49,481 nt of DNA. Source: Dyella acidisoli (GTDB taxonomy: Bacteria; Pseudomonadota; Gammaproteobacteria; Xanthomonadales; Rhodanobacteraceae). Of the stretch, positions 6,033-49,481 are shown in pieces (position 1 is the stretch's first letter; each line of letters starts with the position of its first letter). Where the stretch lies: the NCBI RefSeq assembly GCF_030160295.1, contig NZ_BSOB01000002.1, forward strand, positions 1 to 49,481. Direction: 5' to 3'. The position numbers and the translations under genes were made by a program. The notes beneath the pieces were generated by a model that worked only from the letters and a program-made list of their open reading frames with translations, did no database searches and was not told where the DNA came from.

Positions 6033-6704
6033 GTGCCCTCCCAGCCCAACCGAACCCGCCGCACAGCTAAACGTCCCAAGCTCGCCCTGAGCCCCAAAGT
6101 GGTGCCGGCGCAGTCGCGCGCCGCGGAAACCTACGAGCACCTGCTTACCGTTACAGCACAGGTACTTGCCGACGTCGGTTTCGAATTGCTCACCACCAAC
6201 CTGGTGTGCGAGCGAGCGAAGTTGTCGCCGCCGGCGTTGTACCGCTACTTTCCCAATAAGTACGCCATGCTGCACGAGCTCGGACTGCGTTTGATGCAGA
6301 AGCAGAATGCACTGATCCCGCAATGGCTGACGCCTGCTGCGTTCAAGTCAGCGAAGAAGCTGGAGGATGCAATCACGGGACTTTTGCTCGAAACCTACAA
6401 AGTCACGCGTGAAACCACCGGCGGCATTTGGATCATGCGTGCATTGCGCGCGATACCGATGCTTCAAGATGTACGGCTCGAATCGGCCAAGGTGGTTGCT
6501 TCGCAGGTCACCGCGCGACTCAGCGAGGCATTTCCGAAGAGTGCGCAAGAAGATCTGGAACTCATCAGCCGTGTGGCCGACAGCATGTCCTACGCTGCGC
6601 TGGAGATGTTGTTCGACGATCCGTTGCTGGATTCGTCGGCGGTCATGCGCCTGGTTGCTGCGAGCCTTGCGAGCCATGTGGCACGCCTGAAGGGAAAGGC
6701 ATAA
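6033..6704 (+). CDS. TetR/AcrR-family transcriptional regulator
   Basis: A 223-residue protein with an N-terminal helix-turn-helix (LLTTNLVCERAKLSPPALYR followed by YFPNKYAMLHE, residues ~50-80), characteristic of TetR repressors, and a divergent C-terminal ligand-binding part. It starts at GTG 6033; no Shine-Dalgarno is evident, so a slightly later start is possible. The first 30 residues are a basic, Pro-rich tail. It is transcribed away from the sugar-catabolism operon across the palindromic island at 5964-6007, the classic arrangement for a local autoregulated repressor released by a pathway metabolite. Confidence 0.88.
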   Translation: MPSQPNRTRRTAKRPKLALSPKVVPAQSRAAETYEHLLTVTAQVLADVGFELLTTNLVCERAKLSPPALYRYFPNKYAMLHELGLRLMQKQNALIPQWLTPAAFKSAKKLEDAITGLLLETYKVTRETTGGIWIMRALRAIPMLQDVRLESAKVVASQVTARLSEAFPKSAQEDLELISRVADSMSYAALEMLFDDPLLDSSAVMRLVAASLASHVARLKGKA

Positions 6705-6719: not shown

Positions 6720-7312
6720 GCCTCTCTCTCTTTGGAACCTGATTAGCCTCTGGTCTCAGCTGGGGATGTCGTGGTGTTGGGGGATTGCCTGCGGCGCTTT
6801 CGGAGCTTTCGGACCCTAAAGGGCCCGAGTCACTTTTCTTTGCTGGCCCAAAGAAAAGTAACCCAAAGAAATGGCCTGAAGAGCTCGTGGCATTGCATAG
6901 GTTACAAGCCTGATGGATGTCGCCTTGCTTTGATCATTGGCGGGCCAAGCTTCCACCGCGCCGCTATACCGCGAGGCGTCGAAGCGCTGAGGACTTAAGG
7001 CAGATCGGGCAGACCTCGGCAAAGCTCAGCTTCTGGGCAGGCGCGCTTTAAGCCCTCAGTGCTTCGACGCCTCGCGGTATAGCGGGGACGTTGAACCATA
7101 GGCGACCAACCACCTATCTAGCCATACACGTTCAGGCTTTTACCCTACCCATGCTGTGAGCCTTTTAGGCCATTTCTTTGGGTTACTTTTCTTTGGGCCA
7201 GCAAAGAAAAGTGACCCGGTCGCTTCGCGACCGGAAGCGCCGCAGGCAATGCCACAACAACACAACATACACAGCCGAAGCGAGACGCTAATCAGGCCGA
7301 AGCGAGAGGAGC
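6720..7312. repeat. Large nested palindromic repeat element, copy 1
   Basis: This roughly 590-bp gene-free element is almost wholly built from inverted repeats. The perfect 49-bp outer arms are 6829-6877 and 7167-7215; they extend outward imperfectly for about 100 bp to each end. The inner arms, 38 bp and nearly identical, are 6961-6998 and 7048-7085. They enclose a non-palindromic core, 6999-7047. The spacers between outer and inner arms are unique and unrelated to each other. A second full copy lies at 24565-25105 and a third, partial one at 49320-49433. The core orientation differs between copies 1 and 2. The right end abuts the stop codon of the epimerase gene. No transposase is present, and short open frames within it look fortuitous. 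Confidence 0.9.
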
Positions 7313-8362
7313 TTAAGCAACTGCTGCGCGCTGCGCGACCCAACTAAGATAGTGATCACGCAACGTTTCCTCGATCGGCCGATAAACGATCCCGAGTTCG
7401 CTCACGCTGCGCTGGTTGTCCACCTTGAAGCGGATACCAAGGTGCTTACGGATGTAATCCTGCGTTAGTCCGAAGAACGGCCCGATCATTTTGACCACCG
7501 CATCCGGAATCTGATGCCTCGGCAGCAGATACGGGCGCTTGTGGTTCTTGCGAACAATCCTGGATATTTCGACGAAGGAAATCATGTCCTTCTCGGCCAG
7601 AATGTAGCGCCCGTGTGCCTGGGGCAAACGCGCGGCCTGGACATGCGCCTTGGCCACTTCGCGCACATCCACAGTGGTCAGGCTCAAATCGGGCATCCCG
7701 TAGAAGAAATAGCCTTTGAACATCTCATCCAGCAAAAACAGGCTGCCGGAATCCGACGCGGGCGTAAGCGACGGCCCAAGGATCATGCCTGGATTGATGG
7801 TGACCAGCGTCCAGCGGCTTTGCGCCTCGCACAGTCGCCATGCTTCTTTTTCGGCCTCGACCTTGGCGTAGTGATAAGGATTGTTTTCGATCGTGCTGCT
7901 GGTGTTGAAGTAGGTTTCAGAAAGCGTCTGATCCTTCATGCTCAACACATCGATGTAGTCGCCGAAGATGGCGCCTACTGTCGATGTCATCACTACGCGT
8001 TGAACGTCCTTAGCCTTGTCCGCGCTCGCAAGCACGTTCTGCGTACCGCGCAACGCCGGCTCCAGCATCTGTCGCTGCCCGTCCTTAATCTTTTCGGGCA
8101 GAAGAAAAGGCGATGCGACGTGATGCACCACCGCGCAACCGTCCATGGCTTCATCAAACGAACCCGACGTGAGCAAATCTGCCTCGAACAATCGCAACTG
8201 CTGGGGATATTGCTGTTGCAGCAACGTCAAGGGTCGAAGCTTGGATTCGTTCGCCAGGCTGCGCACCGTGGCATGCACCTGATGCCCATCCTGCAGTAAC
8301 TGTTGCACCACATGACAACCCACGAAACCGCTACCGCCGGTCACCAGCGCCGTTTCTTTCAC
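7313..8362 (-). CDS. NAD(P)-dependent epimerase/dehydratase (dihydroflavonol-4-reductase-like)
   Basis: A 349-residue extended short-chain dehydrogenase/reductase. The Rossmann NAD(P)-binding motif TGGSGFVG starts near residue 8, and the catalytic pair lies in YHYAKVEAEK (Tyr-x3-Lys). TSTVGAIFG supplies the conserved Ser/Thr region. The pattern matches DFR/cinnamoyl-CoA-reductase-like enzymes, which reduce ketones or aldehydes or act on nucleotide sugars. The frame is open to 8473, but that extension covers a small palindromic repeat and has no protein character. GTG 8362, with a G-rich sequence just before it, places the Rossmann motif at the expected distance from the N-terminus. Its neighbours give no pathway hint; the substrate is unknown. 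Confidence 0.83.
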   Translation of the reverse strand: MKETALVTGGSGFVGCHVVQQLLQDGHQVHATVRSLANESKLRPLTLLQQQYPQQLRLFEADLLTSGSFDEAMDGCAVVHHVASPFLLPEKIKDGQRQMLEPALRGTQNVLASADKAKDVQRVVMTSTVGAIFGDYIDVLSMKDQTLSETYFNTSSTIENNPYHYAKVEAEKEAWRLCEAQSRWTLVTINPGMILGPSLTPASDSGSLFLLDEMFKGYFFYGMPDLSLTTVDVREVAKAHVQAARLPQAHGRYILAEKDMISFVEISRIVRKNHKRPYLLPRHQIPDAVVKMIGPFFGLTQDYIRKHLGIRFKVDNQRSVSELGIVYRPIEETLRDHYLSWVAQRAAVA

Positions 8363-8413
8363 AAAGCCCCCGAATAGACAGCCCTCGCTCAGAAGTATAG
8401 TTTTTACTATCAA

Positions 8414-8441
8414 GCAGGTTGGGGTGTAAACCCCAACCTGC
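8414..8441. repeat. Short palindromic repeat (GGTTGGGGT family)
   Basis: Perfect 12-bp arms GCAGGTTGGGGT and ACCCCAACCTGC flank a 4-base loop. The same hairpin family recurs at 24482-24555 and 34575-34602, so it is a dispersed intergenic repeat, not a gene-specific site. It lies upstream of the epimerase start and downstream of the YCII gene on the minus strand, and might work as a terminator for the latter. Confidence 0.8.
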
Positions 8442-8479
8442 GGCGTCCTGCAATCACCCACAGGTCTTGCCATGCGCCA

Positions 8480-9508: not shown

Positions 9509-12500
9509 ATGAGCAAGTACCAGTTTCGCTTGGGCAGCAGCCTGCAGGCCTGCATACGCATCGGCCTATGGGCTACCGCACTCGCTAGCGGTCCGTTGTT
9601 TGCGCAGAGCATTACCGGCGGCGTCTACGGCAATTTGCCTGCGGGCACAGACGTCGTTGCAGAAGTCACCAACCCGGCGACGGGTTACGACAGCACCGTG
9701 CGCGCCGATTCCAACGGCCACTACACCGTCACCGGACTGATGCCCGGCAATTACGTCGTCAAACTGTTGCGCGGTGGCCAAGTGGTCGATCAGCGCAATG
9801 TGGTTGTTCAGGCCGGTTCCAACAGTCCCGCGATCTTCAGCGCAGCGGCGGCAGCCGGCAACGTGAAAGAGCTGAATTCGGTCACCGTTACCGCCTCGCA
9901 GCCGTCGGTTAACGCGATCGACGTGACGACGAGCCAGCAGGTTCAGACGTGGAATTCAAAAGACATCAATCGTCTGCCGTTGATCAATCCAGATCTGCTC
10001 ACGATCGCCTCGATGCAGTCGAACGTGACATCCATTACCAGTTCGCACGGCAACGCCCCACAGTTCAACGGCGCGTCGGGTACCGAGAACCGCTACTTCC
10101 TCAACGAATTCAACGTCACCGACATGCAGCAGGGCGCGGTGCCGGACAAGATTCCGAACGAGGCCCTCGCCACTGTCTCCACCATCGACGGCGGCATGGA
10201 TGCCAAATACGGCAGCGCCATGGGCGGCGTCGTTGCCGGCACGATCAAACAAGGCTCGAATGACTTCAAGGCCGGTGTGGATTTGGCGTTCACGCCTGCC
10301 ACGGGCACGCTCAATGAAAACCCCAGGAACGTCTACAACTACAACGGTCAGCTGAGTACCGCCAATCAGCTGAACCACTGGTCGCCGAGCCTGCTGCAGG
10401 ACTACTGGGCATCCGGCGCGATCTTGAAGGACAAACTGTTCTACTACGTGCTCGCCGAAATTGAGCCGAACAACTATGGCCAAGGTGTACAGGGCGTCAA
10501 CCCGACCACGACCTACAGCTCCGGCACCAAGACCCTCAACGAAAACCGCAACAAGCAGTTCCTCGGCAACTTCACCTGGAACATCGCTGACGGCCACTCG
10601 CTGAACATCTTCATCGACCGTCAGAGCAATCTTCAGACGCAATCGCAGTATGCGCTGGCGACGCCGTACACCCCCTCCAGCGCGGCCCCTACACTGGACA
10701 ACTGGAGTGGTAACGCCTGGCACGACACCATGGCGGTGGCCAACTACCACGGCCAGATCACCGATACGCTGTCTGTCTCGGCGATGGCGGGTACCTCGCA
10801 GCAGTACTTCACTTCGTATAACCAGTACGGCATCGGCGTTCCGTACATCCAGTACTACAACCCGGACACGAAGCAGTACACGCAGCCGCCCGCTAACGGT
10901 ACCAGCAGCCTGTACTACCTGAAGTACCGCATGATGGGTGCGCGCATCGACTTCACTTGGAACGTGACCGACAACCACGAAGTGACCTTCGGCGGCGAGC
11001 GTTACAGCCCGACCATGTCGCAGGCCAATATCCCGAACCCGAACTCCTGGACCTACAGCTACTGCAGCACGTCGCTGGGACCGAACGAGCCTTGCACCAT
11101 CAACGGCCAGTCCGTCGCGCCGGGATCGAAGTACGTCCAGTTGTCCTATGCACCGCGCATCTACTACAACAGCTCGCCCACGTACGGCTTCTATCTGGGT
11201 GATAGCTGGCATTTCGCGCAGAACTGGACCGCGTATGTCGGCGGGCGTTACGACAATTACGCCATGACCGACAACGCCAACATCAAGTTTTACAGCAAGG
11301 GCAATTTCCTGCCTCGCGTGGGTGTGGCATGGGACGTCCATGGTGATTCAACGCTGAAGGTCGGCGCCACAGCGGGTGAGTACTCCGAAGGCATTCCGCT
11401 TTACTTCAATGCTTACGGTGGCACGCCGGGTCAGGGCTACATCCACACCACCACCACTTACACGTATACCGGCGTGACAGGCAATGGCGTTCCGACCGGT
11501 CTGACGCAAGTGGGGCCTGTGCAAGGCAGTTCCGGTAGCGGCCTGCATTACCTGACGCCCGGACAATTCATTTCGAGCACGACGCAAAACGCCAAGCTGA
11601 AGCAATTCTCGATTTATGCACAACAAAAACTTGGCGACAGCTGGACCGCAGGCGCCACGTTCTTCACCAGCAAGCTCACCGGGCTGCCGAACATCTACAA
11701 CAACATCGACCAGCTGAAGGCATACCTGACCAACAAGGGCTACCCGAATGCAGTGTTCCTCGGCCAGTACCTGATCACGCCGGGCAAGGACATCAACATT
11801 CCGGTGCAATTGAACGGCGCCAACAGCCCGCTCACGATGGTCAACTTCCCAAACAGCTACATCGGTTTTCCGTCGCTGCGGCGCAAGATCTATCAGCTCA
11901 GCCTGACCATGGATCACGCCTACTCCGAGGAAGAACCGTACTACCTGAGCGCGTCCTACACGTGGCGTCATGAATTCGGCAACACGGATGGCACCACCAG
12001 CTATGCCGGCGGCACCGGCAACACCGGTGCGACCGGCTATGACGGCGGCTTGAATGCCCCGGGCTTCCTGCAGGGTGCCGCAGGTAATCTGGGCAACGAT
12101 ATCCCGAACACGGTCAAGGTGTTCGGTTACTACAAGTTTGCCCATCAGGACAACTTGCTGAAGGGTCTGCGTGTGGGTGGGGCACTCACGTACTACGAGG
12201 GTGGTCCGGTCGATTGCAATTCTCAGTATCCGAACAACGGAACCCTGGCGATCGGCAGCAACCAGCTCGGCAACAACAACGCGTATTACTGCAACACGTT
12301 GTCGAACGTATTGGCTGGCCAGTCTCCGATCTCGAACAGCATCATCTACACCCGCGGCAGCTACGGTCGCCTTCCGTCGTACAAACAAGTGGACCTGGAT
12401 ATTGGCTACGACTGGGCATACGGCAAGAACGCCTTCTCGTTGGATTTGAAGGTGCTCAATCTGTTCAACAGCAACACCGTTACCTCGTACGTCACCAACA

Positions 12501-23226: not shown

Positions 23227-24423
23227 ATGAACATCAAGTCCGCGCCGAAAGGTGCGCAGGGGAAGGTCGTTCCCATTCCCGGCCGTTTACGCCGTTTCGG
23301 TCTCACTTCGCGCGACAGATTTTTGACGGTCATCGCAGCGTCTTTGGCCCTGGCTGGCGCAGCGATGCCTGCATCCGCCACCAACTGGTGGACGGCAACG
23401 CCGACCATTTCGATCGGCCCCACCGTACTCAATGTCCGCAACTTTGGCGCCATGGGTAACGGCGCGACGGACGACACCGCTGCATTCCAAGCGGCCATCA
23501 ATGCCCTGCCCGCCAGTGGCGGTACGGTCGTGGTGCCGGACGGCACATACATGATCAACGCACTCAAGGCCATCAATCTGCGCTCGCATGTGCGCCTGTC
23601 GATGTGGGGCAATGCATATCTGCAGGCTATTCCAAACAACGCCAGCCGCTACTGGGTGGTGAAGGTGTGGAACGTGAACAACGTCGAGATCGTTGGCGGC
23701 CACGTCATCGGGGAGCGCAGCACGCATCAGGGCACCAGCGGCGAGTGGGGTTATGACATCAGCGTCTCCGGCTCAAGCAACGTCTACGTGCACGACATCA
23801 AGCTCGCCGACTCCTGGGGTGACGGCATCCTGATCGGCGCGATCGGCTCGGGCACGTCAGCCGTACTGTCGACTAACGTAACGCTCAACCGCGTCACCTC
23901 CGACAACAACCGCCGCCAGGCCCTGACCATTGCACCGGCCACCTAGGTGTACGTGGTGAACAGCACTTTCACAGGCTCCAACGGCACCGCACCGCAAGCT
24001 GGCATCGACATCGAGCCGATGACACAAGGCACCACGCAACACATACGACTGGAGAACACCATGCTGGCGAACAATGCCGGCAATGGCCTGGAAATTCACG
24101 ACTACGTGTCGGACCTGACGGTGAACAAGGTCACGTCCGAGAACAATAAAGGTTACGGTGTGTTCGCCAACAGCCCCAATGGCGTGGCGATCACGAACAG
24201 TACGCTTACGGAGAACTACCTGTTCGGCGTGGACATCGGCGGCGTCACCAGCAATGTGCAGCTTGTCGGCAACACGATCAACTACAACGGCGCCGCGTGG
24301 TTTGTTGCGCACAACGTGTCGGTCTTCACGTCGGGTTGGGTGCCGCGCGACATCACGATTTCGAGCACGGCTACGAACGTTACGCAGTTCAATAACATCG
24401 TTTCGCCGCTGCGTACAAAGTAA
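23227..24423 (+). pseudogene. Secreted right-handed beta-helix (pectate-lyase-3-like) protein, interrupted by an in-frame TAG
   Basis: The first part (23227-23943, 239 codons) has a signal peptide ending AAMPASA and VRNFGAMGNGATDDTAAFQA, the hallmark start of pectate-lyase-3/GH28-like beta-helices. Reading continues in the same frame after TAG 23944-23946 for another 158 codons to TAA 24423, with clear beta-helix rungs (ITNSTLTENYLFGVDIGG). There is no frameshift and no compositional break: one base change would restore a single 398-codon gene. GTG follows the TAG directly, but no ribosome site precedes it. Start ATG 23227 has GGGGG. It is most simply a recent nonsense mutation or a sequencing error; readthrough is less likely. 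A terminator follows. Confidence 0.8.
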
Positions 24424-24450
24424 TCTCGGCGATTCGATCGTCTGCAAGCC

Positions 24451-24481
24451 AAAGCCCTCTCCTTCGCGAGGGGGCTTTTTT
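24451..24481 (+). terminator. Terminator after the beta-helix gene
   Basis: AAAGCCCTC and GAGGGGGCTTT form a stem around TCCTTCGC, followed by a T-run ending at 24481, about 28 bases after the stop. Confidence 0.8.
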
Positions 24482-24555
24482 GTAGGGTGGGGTGTAAACC
24501 CCAACATCGCGATGCATGTGTGCATGGCAATGTTGGGGTTGTAGCCCCAACCTAC
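24482..24555. repeat. Nested double palindrome of the GGTTGGGGT family
   Basis: Two units of the hairpin family seen at 8414 and 34575 are combined. The inner arms ACCCCAACAT and ATGTTGGGGT enclose a 22-base loop, and outer arms GTAGGGTGGGGT and GCCCCAACCTAC pair around them. The whole can fold as one long hairpin or as two small ones. Confidence 0.7.
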
Positions 24556-24564
24556 ACGAACTTC

Positions 24565-25105
24565 AGGTCGGCATGTCGCGAGTTTCGCCATTGCCTGCGG
24601 CGCTTTCGGACCCTAAAGTGCCCGAGTCACTTTTCTTTGCTGGCCAAAGAAAAGTAACCCAAAGAAATGGCCTGAAGAGCTCACAGCATTGCATGGGTTA
24701 CAAGCCTGAAGGATGTCGCCTTGCTTTGATCGTTGGCGGGCCAAGCTTCCACCACCCCGCTATAACGCGAGGCGTCGAAGCATTGCGGGCTTAAAGCGCG
24801 CCCTCCGCAGGTTGAGCTTGGCTGAGATCTGCCCGATCTGCTTTAAGTCCTCAGCGCTTCGACGCCTCGCGGTATAGCGGGGGCGTCGAACCATGGGCGA
24901 CCAACCACCTATCTAGCCATACACGTTCAGGCTTTTCCCTTCCGCATGCTGTGAGCCGTTTAGGCCATTTCTTTGGGTTACTTTTCTTTGGGCCAGCAAA
25001 GAAAAGTGACCCGGTCGCTTCGCGACCGGAAGCGCCGCAGGCAATGGTCCAACCCACGAAATACCCAGCTGAGGCGAGACGCTAACCAGGCCCAAAGGGA
25101 ACAGG
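24565..25105. repeat. Large nested palindromic repeat element, copy 2
   Basis: Same architecture as copy 1. Outer arms: 24626-24673 (one base shorter) and 24962-25010. Inner 38-bp arms: 24757-24794 and 24843-24880. Core: 24795-24842. The two spacers between outer and inner arms match copy 1 in the same orientation at roughly 90% identity by eye. The core matches copy 1 only as its reverse complement (about 80%). The element fills the gap between the beta-helix gene and the polyphosphate kinase gene, and ends about 70 bases before the kinase start. Together with 24424-24564 it accounts for the whole 750-base gap. Confidence 0.9.
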
Positions 25106-25173
25106 CGATCACGCATCGCGCATTACAAAACGTTGAACGCCTTCTTACAAACAGCATATGCGCGGCGCTGTTC

Positions 25174-49294: not shown

Positions 49295-49319
49295 TATGGG
49301 CTTTATTGCATAACTCCCC

Positions 49320-49433
49320 TCTCCCTTCGGGACCCGATTAGCGTCGAGCTTCAGCTGGGCATGTCGTGCGTTGTGACATTGCCTGCGGCGCTTCCGGTCG
49401 CGAAGCGACCGGGTCACTTTTCTTTGCTGGCCC
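49320..49433. repeat. Large palindromic repeat element, partial copy 3
   Basis: This matches the outer part of the arms of copies 1 and 2, best as the reverse complement of the right-hand arm of copy 2 (with the CCGGTCGC / GCGACCGG hairpin). It runs through TCTTTGCTGGCCC and then departs from the repeat at about 49433, where AAAGAAAAG is expected. Only an arm is present before the window ends. Confidence 0.85.
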
Positions 49434-49481
49434 CAGTACTGTCCGGTTAATCGGCAAATAAAATCAATTGGTTAGCGTCAC
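49434..49481. other. Unrelated sequence breaking the third palindrome
   Basis: Forty-eight bases beginning CAGTACTGTCCGGTTAATCG are unlike the palindrome and AT-rich. This is what the end of an inserted mobile element could look like, but too little is visible to name one. Confidence 0.3.

Follow-up and report, generated by a model that had tools for sequence, protein, structure and literature searches.

The core of a nested palindromic element that is dispersed in the genome of Dyella acidisoli is found in both directions relative to the spacers on its two sides, and small differences at the ends of its arms turn together with it. At least one real inversion is required to explain this arrangement. 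We consider it rather probable that the core was turned by rare inversion across the inner arms, through template switching or homologous exchange and probably more than once, and that the turned and unturned cores were then reshuffled among the copies.

Structure and location of the element

The window, i.e. the whole stretch of 49,481 nucleotides that was analysed, is contig C2 of a draft genome of 5.34 Mb in 64 contigs. Two full copies of the element were confirmed where a preliminary description of this DNA had placed them (copy 1 and copy 2). The element, apparently non-coding, is a dispersed nested palindrome of the Rhodanobacteraceae. It consists of a nest of inverted repeats, from the outside to the inside outermost arms, outer arms carrying the AAAGAAAAGTAACCC motif, unequal spacers, inner arms and the core. 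The features are as follows, none of them being assigned to a strand:

6720–7312: copy 1 of the nested palindromic element, absent between the same gene pair in two relatives
6738–6803: copy 1, left outermost arm, partner 7231–7296, 82% complementary
7231–7296: copy 1, right outermost arm, partner 6738–6803
6819–6893: copy 1, left outer arm with AAAGAAAAGTAACCC motif, partner 7151–7225, 88% complementary
7151–7225: copy 1, right outer arm, partner 6819–6893
6890–6960: copy 1, left spacer, fixes the orientation of the element
7086–7165: copy 1, right spacer, fixes the orientation of the element
6961–6984: copy 1, left inner arm, 24 bp, consensus identical to right arm
7062–7085: copy 1, right inner arm, 24 bp, inverted
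6985–7061: copy 1, core and arm ends, the unit occurring in either orientation, state F
24565–25105: copy 2 of the nested palindromic element, located upstream of the polyphosphate kinase gene
24644–24689: copy 2, left outer arm, partner 24946–24991, 93% complementary
24946–24991: copy 2, right outer arm, partner 24644–24689
24757–24780: copy 2, left inner arm, one change versus the arm consensus
24857–24880: copy 2, right inner arm
24781–24856: copy 2, core and arm ends, reverse to copy 1, state R
49316–49481: third copy, partial, continuing into an insertion-sequence end and the end of the contig (L126)

The inner arms are near-perfect. Over 24 bp the left and right consensus of 31 copies from the same genome are identical, the two arms of a copy differ by 0.71 mismatches on average and they are exactly equal in 17 of the 31. 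Copy 1 has a strong hairpin, with z values of −11.1 and −9.8 for its two strands as RNA and −10.2 and −9.5 as DNA. The spacing of the inner-arm motif (e.g. 6972–7074) is mostly 81, 90 or 99 bp in the copies of this genome; spacings of 81 and 90 bp occur in both core orientations and 99 bp in R copies only, as if the core had gained or lost a unit of 9 bp. No Rfam family reached the gathering score within the window, the element had no match on plasmids, and a name for it was absent from the literature found in narrow searches.

A search of the genome with copy 1 yielded at least 86 matches, both strands counted; 40 of the 74 candidates were scored and further copies may exist beyond these. In the family, some match to the element was present in 141 of 233 genomes, with two candidates scored per genome, and long versions were found in several genomes of Dyella as well as in another genus. 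With the polyphosphate kinases of Dyella choica and D. flagellata that of the window shares 92% identity. The complete genomes G048 and G063, which belong to another genus, were sampled in 20 stretches; a strict arm-motif test detected the two-sided element in none of these, and 14 were without any arm motif. The matches listed for these two genomes (L324–L343) were many and mostly covered one end of the query.

Copy 1 is located between a TetR-type gene (6033–6704) and an epimerase-type gene (7313–8473, minus strand). The same gene pair is found without copy 1 in two relatives, the gap being 114 bp in G078 and 82 bp in G073 versus about 650 in the window. Copy 1 was therefore either inserted in the genome of the window or lost in the relatives. 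Among 18 copies with enough flanking sequence 9 lie between tandem, 5 between convergent and 4 between divergent genes, according to a crude longest-open-frame rule that miscalls copy 2.

Copy 2 adjoins ppk1 and its Pfam-supported neighbours are both on the plus strand. Gene order beside ppk1 is broken at this copy (24423–25155): in D. choica and others the gene adjoining ppk1, as judged by eye, differs from that of the window, so that these loci provided no clean empty site for copy 2. The gene that by eye usually precedes ppk1 in these genomes, which from its motifs we take to be of kinase type, is located at G000:C34:180-1427, beside a copy at a contig end. The break is due either to a wrong join or to a rearrangement at the element; the reading of the core is untouched by it, as another 19 distinct copies are in the state of copy 2. 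At 80 ppk1 loci of differing length in relatives a match to the element, a partial one, was present only in L036, where it lies 3.4 kb downstream of ppk1. D. flagellata carries a different long palindromic insertion upstream of ppk1 (L031, about 9690–9970), by eye unrelated to the element.

The outer arm harbours insertion-sequence ends, which is why contigs often end in the element. Besides the end of the window (49316–49481) this was seen at L020, L021, L024, L026, L027, L110, L112–L114, L120, L121 and L123 in the same genome and at L161, L163, L164 and L178–L185 in the relative G070. Several types of insertion-sequence ends share an insertion point that has a 3-bp repeat on either side; these insertion sequences are presumably IS30-like. 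Another end type (L024, L027, L112, L126) lies a few bases from the shared point.

Orientation of the core in the genome and in relatives

For scoring, the spacers set the orientation of each element and the core was then compared in both directions, using copies with both inner arms. The flanks of copies 1 and 2 match on the same strand (149/161 for the left and 154/161 for the right 160 bp) and the core between them is inverted, as the preliminary description had it: 6985–7061 matches copy 2 at 66/78 as reverse complement versus 54/85 direct, and for the loop alone the values are 37/46 versus 28/53. When the scoring was carried out genome-wide, 11 of 31 distinct copies had the core direction of copy 1 (F) and 20 that of copy 2 (R), so that the copies beyond the first two do not share one fixed orientation. 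Partial copies missing an inner arm owing to contig ends, gaps or insertion sequences are excluded from these numbers, as is L110, the centre of which is identical to L026 at the opposite end of the same contig. An alternative scoring including L110 and without L002 assigned 10 of 31 copies to F and 21 to R. The orientation calls are not due to chance: the smallest score difference among the 31 copies was 24, the largest among 3100 shuffled cores 17. For one R copy (L112) the spacers barely fix the orientation of the element (147 versus 124).

Differences at the inner ends of the arms had been described as switching sides with the core between copies 1 and 2. Genome-wide this holds for 28 of the 29 copies readable at both ends, namely 10 of 11 F copies and all 18 readable R copies; two more R copies are readable on one side only. 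The sole exception, L007, combines an F core with arm ends of the R type, reflecting either a conversion of its arm ends or an exchange within the few bases that separate the marker from the core. As the arm-end markers travel with the core, the exchange is located in the 24-bp block 6961–6984/7062–7085. A reason at the RNA level for the asymmetric arm ends (G-U wobbles on one strand, A-C on the other) was rejected, the two wobble types being near balance outside the arm ends, with counts of 92 and 96 in F and 161 and 170 in R copies of this genome and 52 and 74 in G070.

We then turn to the relatives, for which the reference copies are included in the counts. In the Dyella relative G070 all seven copies are R (L162 by a narrow margin, 20 versus 11), and in the Dyella relative G073 five of six are F and one is unscorable. 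In G045 and G046, belonging to another genus, 41 of 41 copies share one direction despite greatly differing cores; 40 of 55 and 40 of 49 candidates were scored in the searches of these two genomes and 44 loci were examined, 3 of which yielded no new copy, and in L250 the spacers are less distinct. Exchange is thus not frequent everywhere such arms occur. In G071 four of five copies, the reference copy being one of the four, point the same way (two weakly, at 20 versus 14 and 13), and the fifth is unscorable. G076 has one F-like copy (L197, 26 versus 14) and one unscorable copy, and the single scored copy of G077 (L189) combines an R-like core (24 versus 14) with F-type arm ends. In three copies of G072 (L191, L198, L200) the core is replaced by an unrelated hairpin repeat of ~100 bp, by eye in one direction. 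A small inverted repeat resembling this hairpin core is located beside copy 2 in the window (24481–24556).

At an orthologous locus with shared flanks, L009 of this genome and L202 of G073 are both F. L028 and L164 of G070, which have only one flank in common, are both R, and in a third orthologous pair (L111 and L200 of G072) the cores are unrelated. Orthologous pairs with scorable cores, two loci only, thus have the same orientation at both positions. The arm ends in G045 and G046 are nearly all F-like among the copies listed, with L247 having G on both sides; this suggests that the F orientation is ancestral, with the homology of left and right spacers across the genera judged by eye. The preliminary description had held that the segment flips or has flipped. 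The latter is supported, as the two states require the segment to have inverted across the inner arms at least once and the arm-end markers turned too. A standing flipping is not supported: the scored copies of the relatives have one direction and both scorable orthologous pairs agree. An active switch is not indicated.

Exchange between copies and number of inversions

In 27 copies the distances of the left and right spacers correlated at 0.05 (p 0.33), and core distances correlated with those of the left spacer at 0.17 (p 0.07) and of the right spacer at 0.08 (p 0.19). The halves within one spacer correlated at 0.17 and 0.12 only. Spacers and core are weakly linked across the copies, which implies that copies swap pieces, and this shuffling points to ectopic exchange. 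Pairs of copies illustrate it directly: L008 (F) and L028 (R) have identical right stretches of 87 bp and opposite cores, and the same is true for L015 (F) and L115 (R), a less secure pair as each begins at a contig end and the two have a prefix of 104 bp in common. L005 (F) and L020 (R) differ in their cores by 1 mismatch in 77. Stem markers of the outer arms (left/right, 31 copies) were TG in 5, GT in 5, TT in 3 and GG in 1 copy; the remaining 17 are incomplete or show a third type. The right spacer of L112 appeared by eye to be of the left type in its inner part, which is less secure in this contig-end copy.

Orientation is nevertheless not spread at random over the copies. Its correlation with core sequence is weak (r 0.19, p 0.0095), as is that with the inner left spacer (r 0.17, p 0.012). 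The core tree requires at least 5 orientation changes, which 0 to 1 of 500 shuffles (mean 9.3) equal or undercut; no branch of this tree is starred, and starred branches force 1 change. The spacer tree has 10 changes for F and R, where the shuffled means are 12.5 and 13.6 and 31 and 15 of 500 shuffles are as low; here starred branches force 3–4 changes, and the clustering of orientation is weaker than on the core tree. For the copies of this genome the spacer tree gives at least 8 orientation changes. A single F clade was rejected by the AU test on cores (p 0.0145; 0.0545 without L005, an omission chosen after the tree had been seen) and on the spacers of this genome (p 0.018), but these tests assume no recombination, which the spacer and core correlations contradict. 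Because copies recombine, the numbers of changes on the trees are not counts of flips: when modules are exchanged, a turned core need not have turned in place but can come from another copy. Two or three inversions are likely, with L005 and L007 looking like reversals. Repeated flips are not proven.

According to the explanation we favour, the inner 24-bp arms and likewise the outer inverted arms would be sites where one arm pairs with its partner or serves as its template. A rare exchange across the inner arms would turn the segment of ~77 bp, probably more than once, by polymerase template switching on a hairpin or a sister strand or by homologous recombination. Conversion among the many copies would then reshuffle spacers and cores, so that both core directions became spread over one genome. 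We infer the molecular route and the number of in-place inversions; the homogenisation of arms, in L112 only, was read by eye. A near alternative to template switching, inseparable from it here, is homologous exchange among sister copies or dispersed ones. In the part of PMC8604942 consulted, template switching at short imperfect inverted repeats is described to homogenise the arms and to invert the spacer, reversibly, and earlier work of the same group is cited there as suggesting that such switching is common in proteobacteria. Against this explanation, the inverted spacers in the rows of PMC8604942 that we considered measure 3–5 bp, partly ascribed by its authors to selection in coding genes, and are thus far shorter than the present core.

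A narrower version of this explanation is that a single old inversion founded an R subfamily, that both subfamilies multiplied and that conversion spread the R cores, with no repeated turning in place. We regard this as possible, if clearly the less probable of the two. The uniformity of G070, of the scorable copies of G073 and of G045 and G046 agrees with it, as do the reshuffling of modules among copies, the clustering on the core tree and the weak correlation of orientation with core and inner left spacer. It is at odds with the finding that the F cores do not form one group in the AU test, recombination being ignored there, and with single copies that mix the two states, i.e. the F core of L005 one mismatch away from an R core, the R-type arm ends of L007 and the R-like core with F-type arm ends in L189 of G077.

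Two readings involving a dedicated activity appear improbable to us. The inner arms could be sites for an enzyme acting in trans or for a dedicated hairpin-processing pathway, making the copies dispersed miniature cassettes that are invertible and exchangeable and have been lost or inactivated in the relatives with one direction; we give this little weight. Slightly less still is to be said for a site-specific recombinase that acts in trans on the 24-bp inner arms and inverts the core, the copies then being a family of tiny invertons. The inverted orientation of the arms, their suitable length and their conservation among copies and Dyella species would fit such an enzyme, as would the inclusion of the arm ends in the inverted unit. 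However, the outer arms exchange too, so that the inner arms are not special, copies in several relatives are uniform in direction, and the core of 77 bp is too small to carry a gene. A domain scan of ten proteins of the window, including neighbours of both copies, detected no recombinase domain (one of the ten was without any family), which leaves room for an enzyme acting in trans.

The lowest probability we assign to an artefact in which the draft assembler attached cores to the wrong arms. The 64 contigs, the many contig ends inside the element and the position of copy 2 at a gene-order break, with the usual ppk1 neighbour at a contig end beside another copy, would be compatible with such errors. 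Yet both states are found in complete copies within contigs (e.g. F: L001, L003, L004, L005, L008; R: L006, L011, L013, L016), and independent assemblies of relatives hold each state, G070 R only and G073 F only. Furthermore, arms of 24–38 bp should be shorter than a usual sequencing read. Misassembly, which the preliminary description had named as a reason to abandon the inversion, is therefore unlikely.

Relation to known systems

We file the element as a further case of a known process, inversion at inverted arms. Small inversions at hairpin loops are found in plastid genomes, where a hairpin loop likewise occurs in both directions between relatives; those are single organelle loci, whereas the element is a repeat family. 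In bacterial invertons, which depend on site-specific recombinases, short inverted arms also flank a segment in two directions. The element differs from them in the lack of a recombinase domain in the ten window proteins, in that no gene is shown to be controlled by it and in the single direction of the scored relatives.

With template-switch mutation as described in the consulted part of PMC8604942 the element shares the inverted arms, the inverted intervening segment and the suggested recurrence, and here the segment is inverted exactly between inverted arms; homogenisation may likewise have occurred in one related copy at a contig end (L112, by eye). The cases described there concern yeast genes, each a single locus with a spacer of a few bases, in contrast to a unit of ~77 bp that recurs in dozens of copies dispersed in a bacterium, with exchange among them. 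REP, BIME, REPIN and other intergenic palindromic repeats are likewise intergenic, palindromic, multicopy and targeted by insertion sequences, a property known for REP sequences (PMC1525189), but the element is much longer, nested and variable in its core. As for a MITE or another mobile intergenic palindrome, presence and absence were found at an orthologous site (copy 1, absent in G078 and G073); no clear target-site duplication was visible by eye at the element ends examined.

The location of the element at many contig ends, as an insertion-sequence target and at a break in gene order means that its behaviour matters for reading these genomes. Bacterial records of the behaviour of inverted arms usually come from single loci or reporters. 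With about thirty copies in one genome, in which the core points either way, spacers are mixed and outer markers have been swapped, the element is a natural record of interactions between inverted arms over time.
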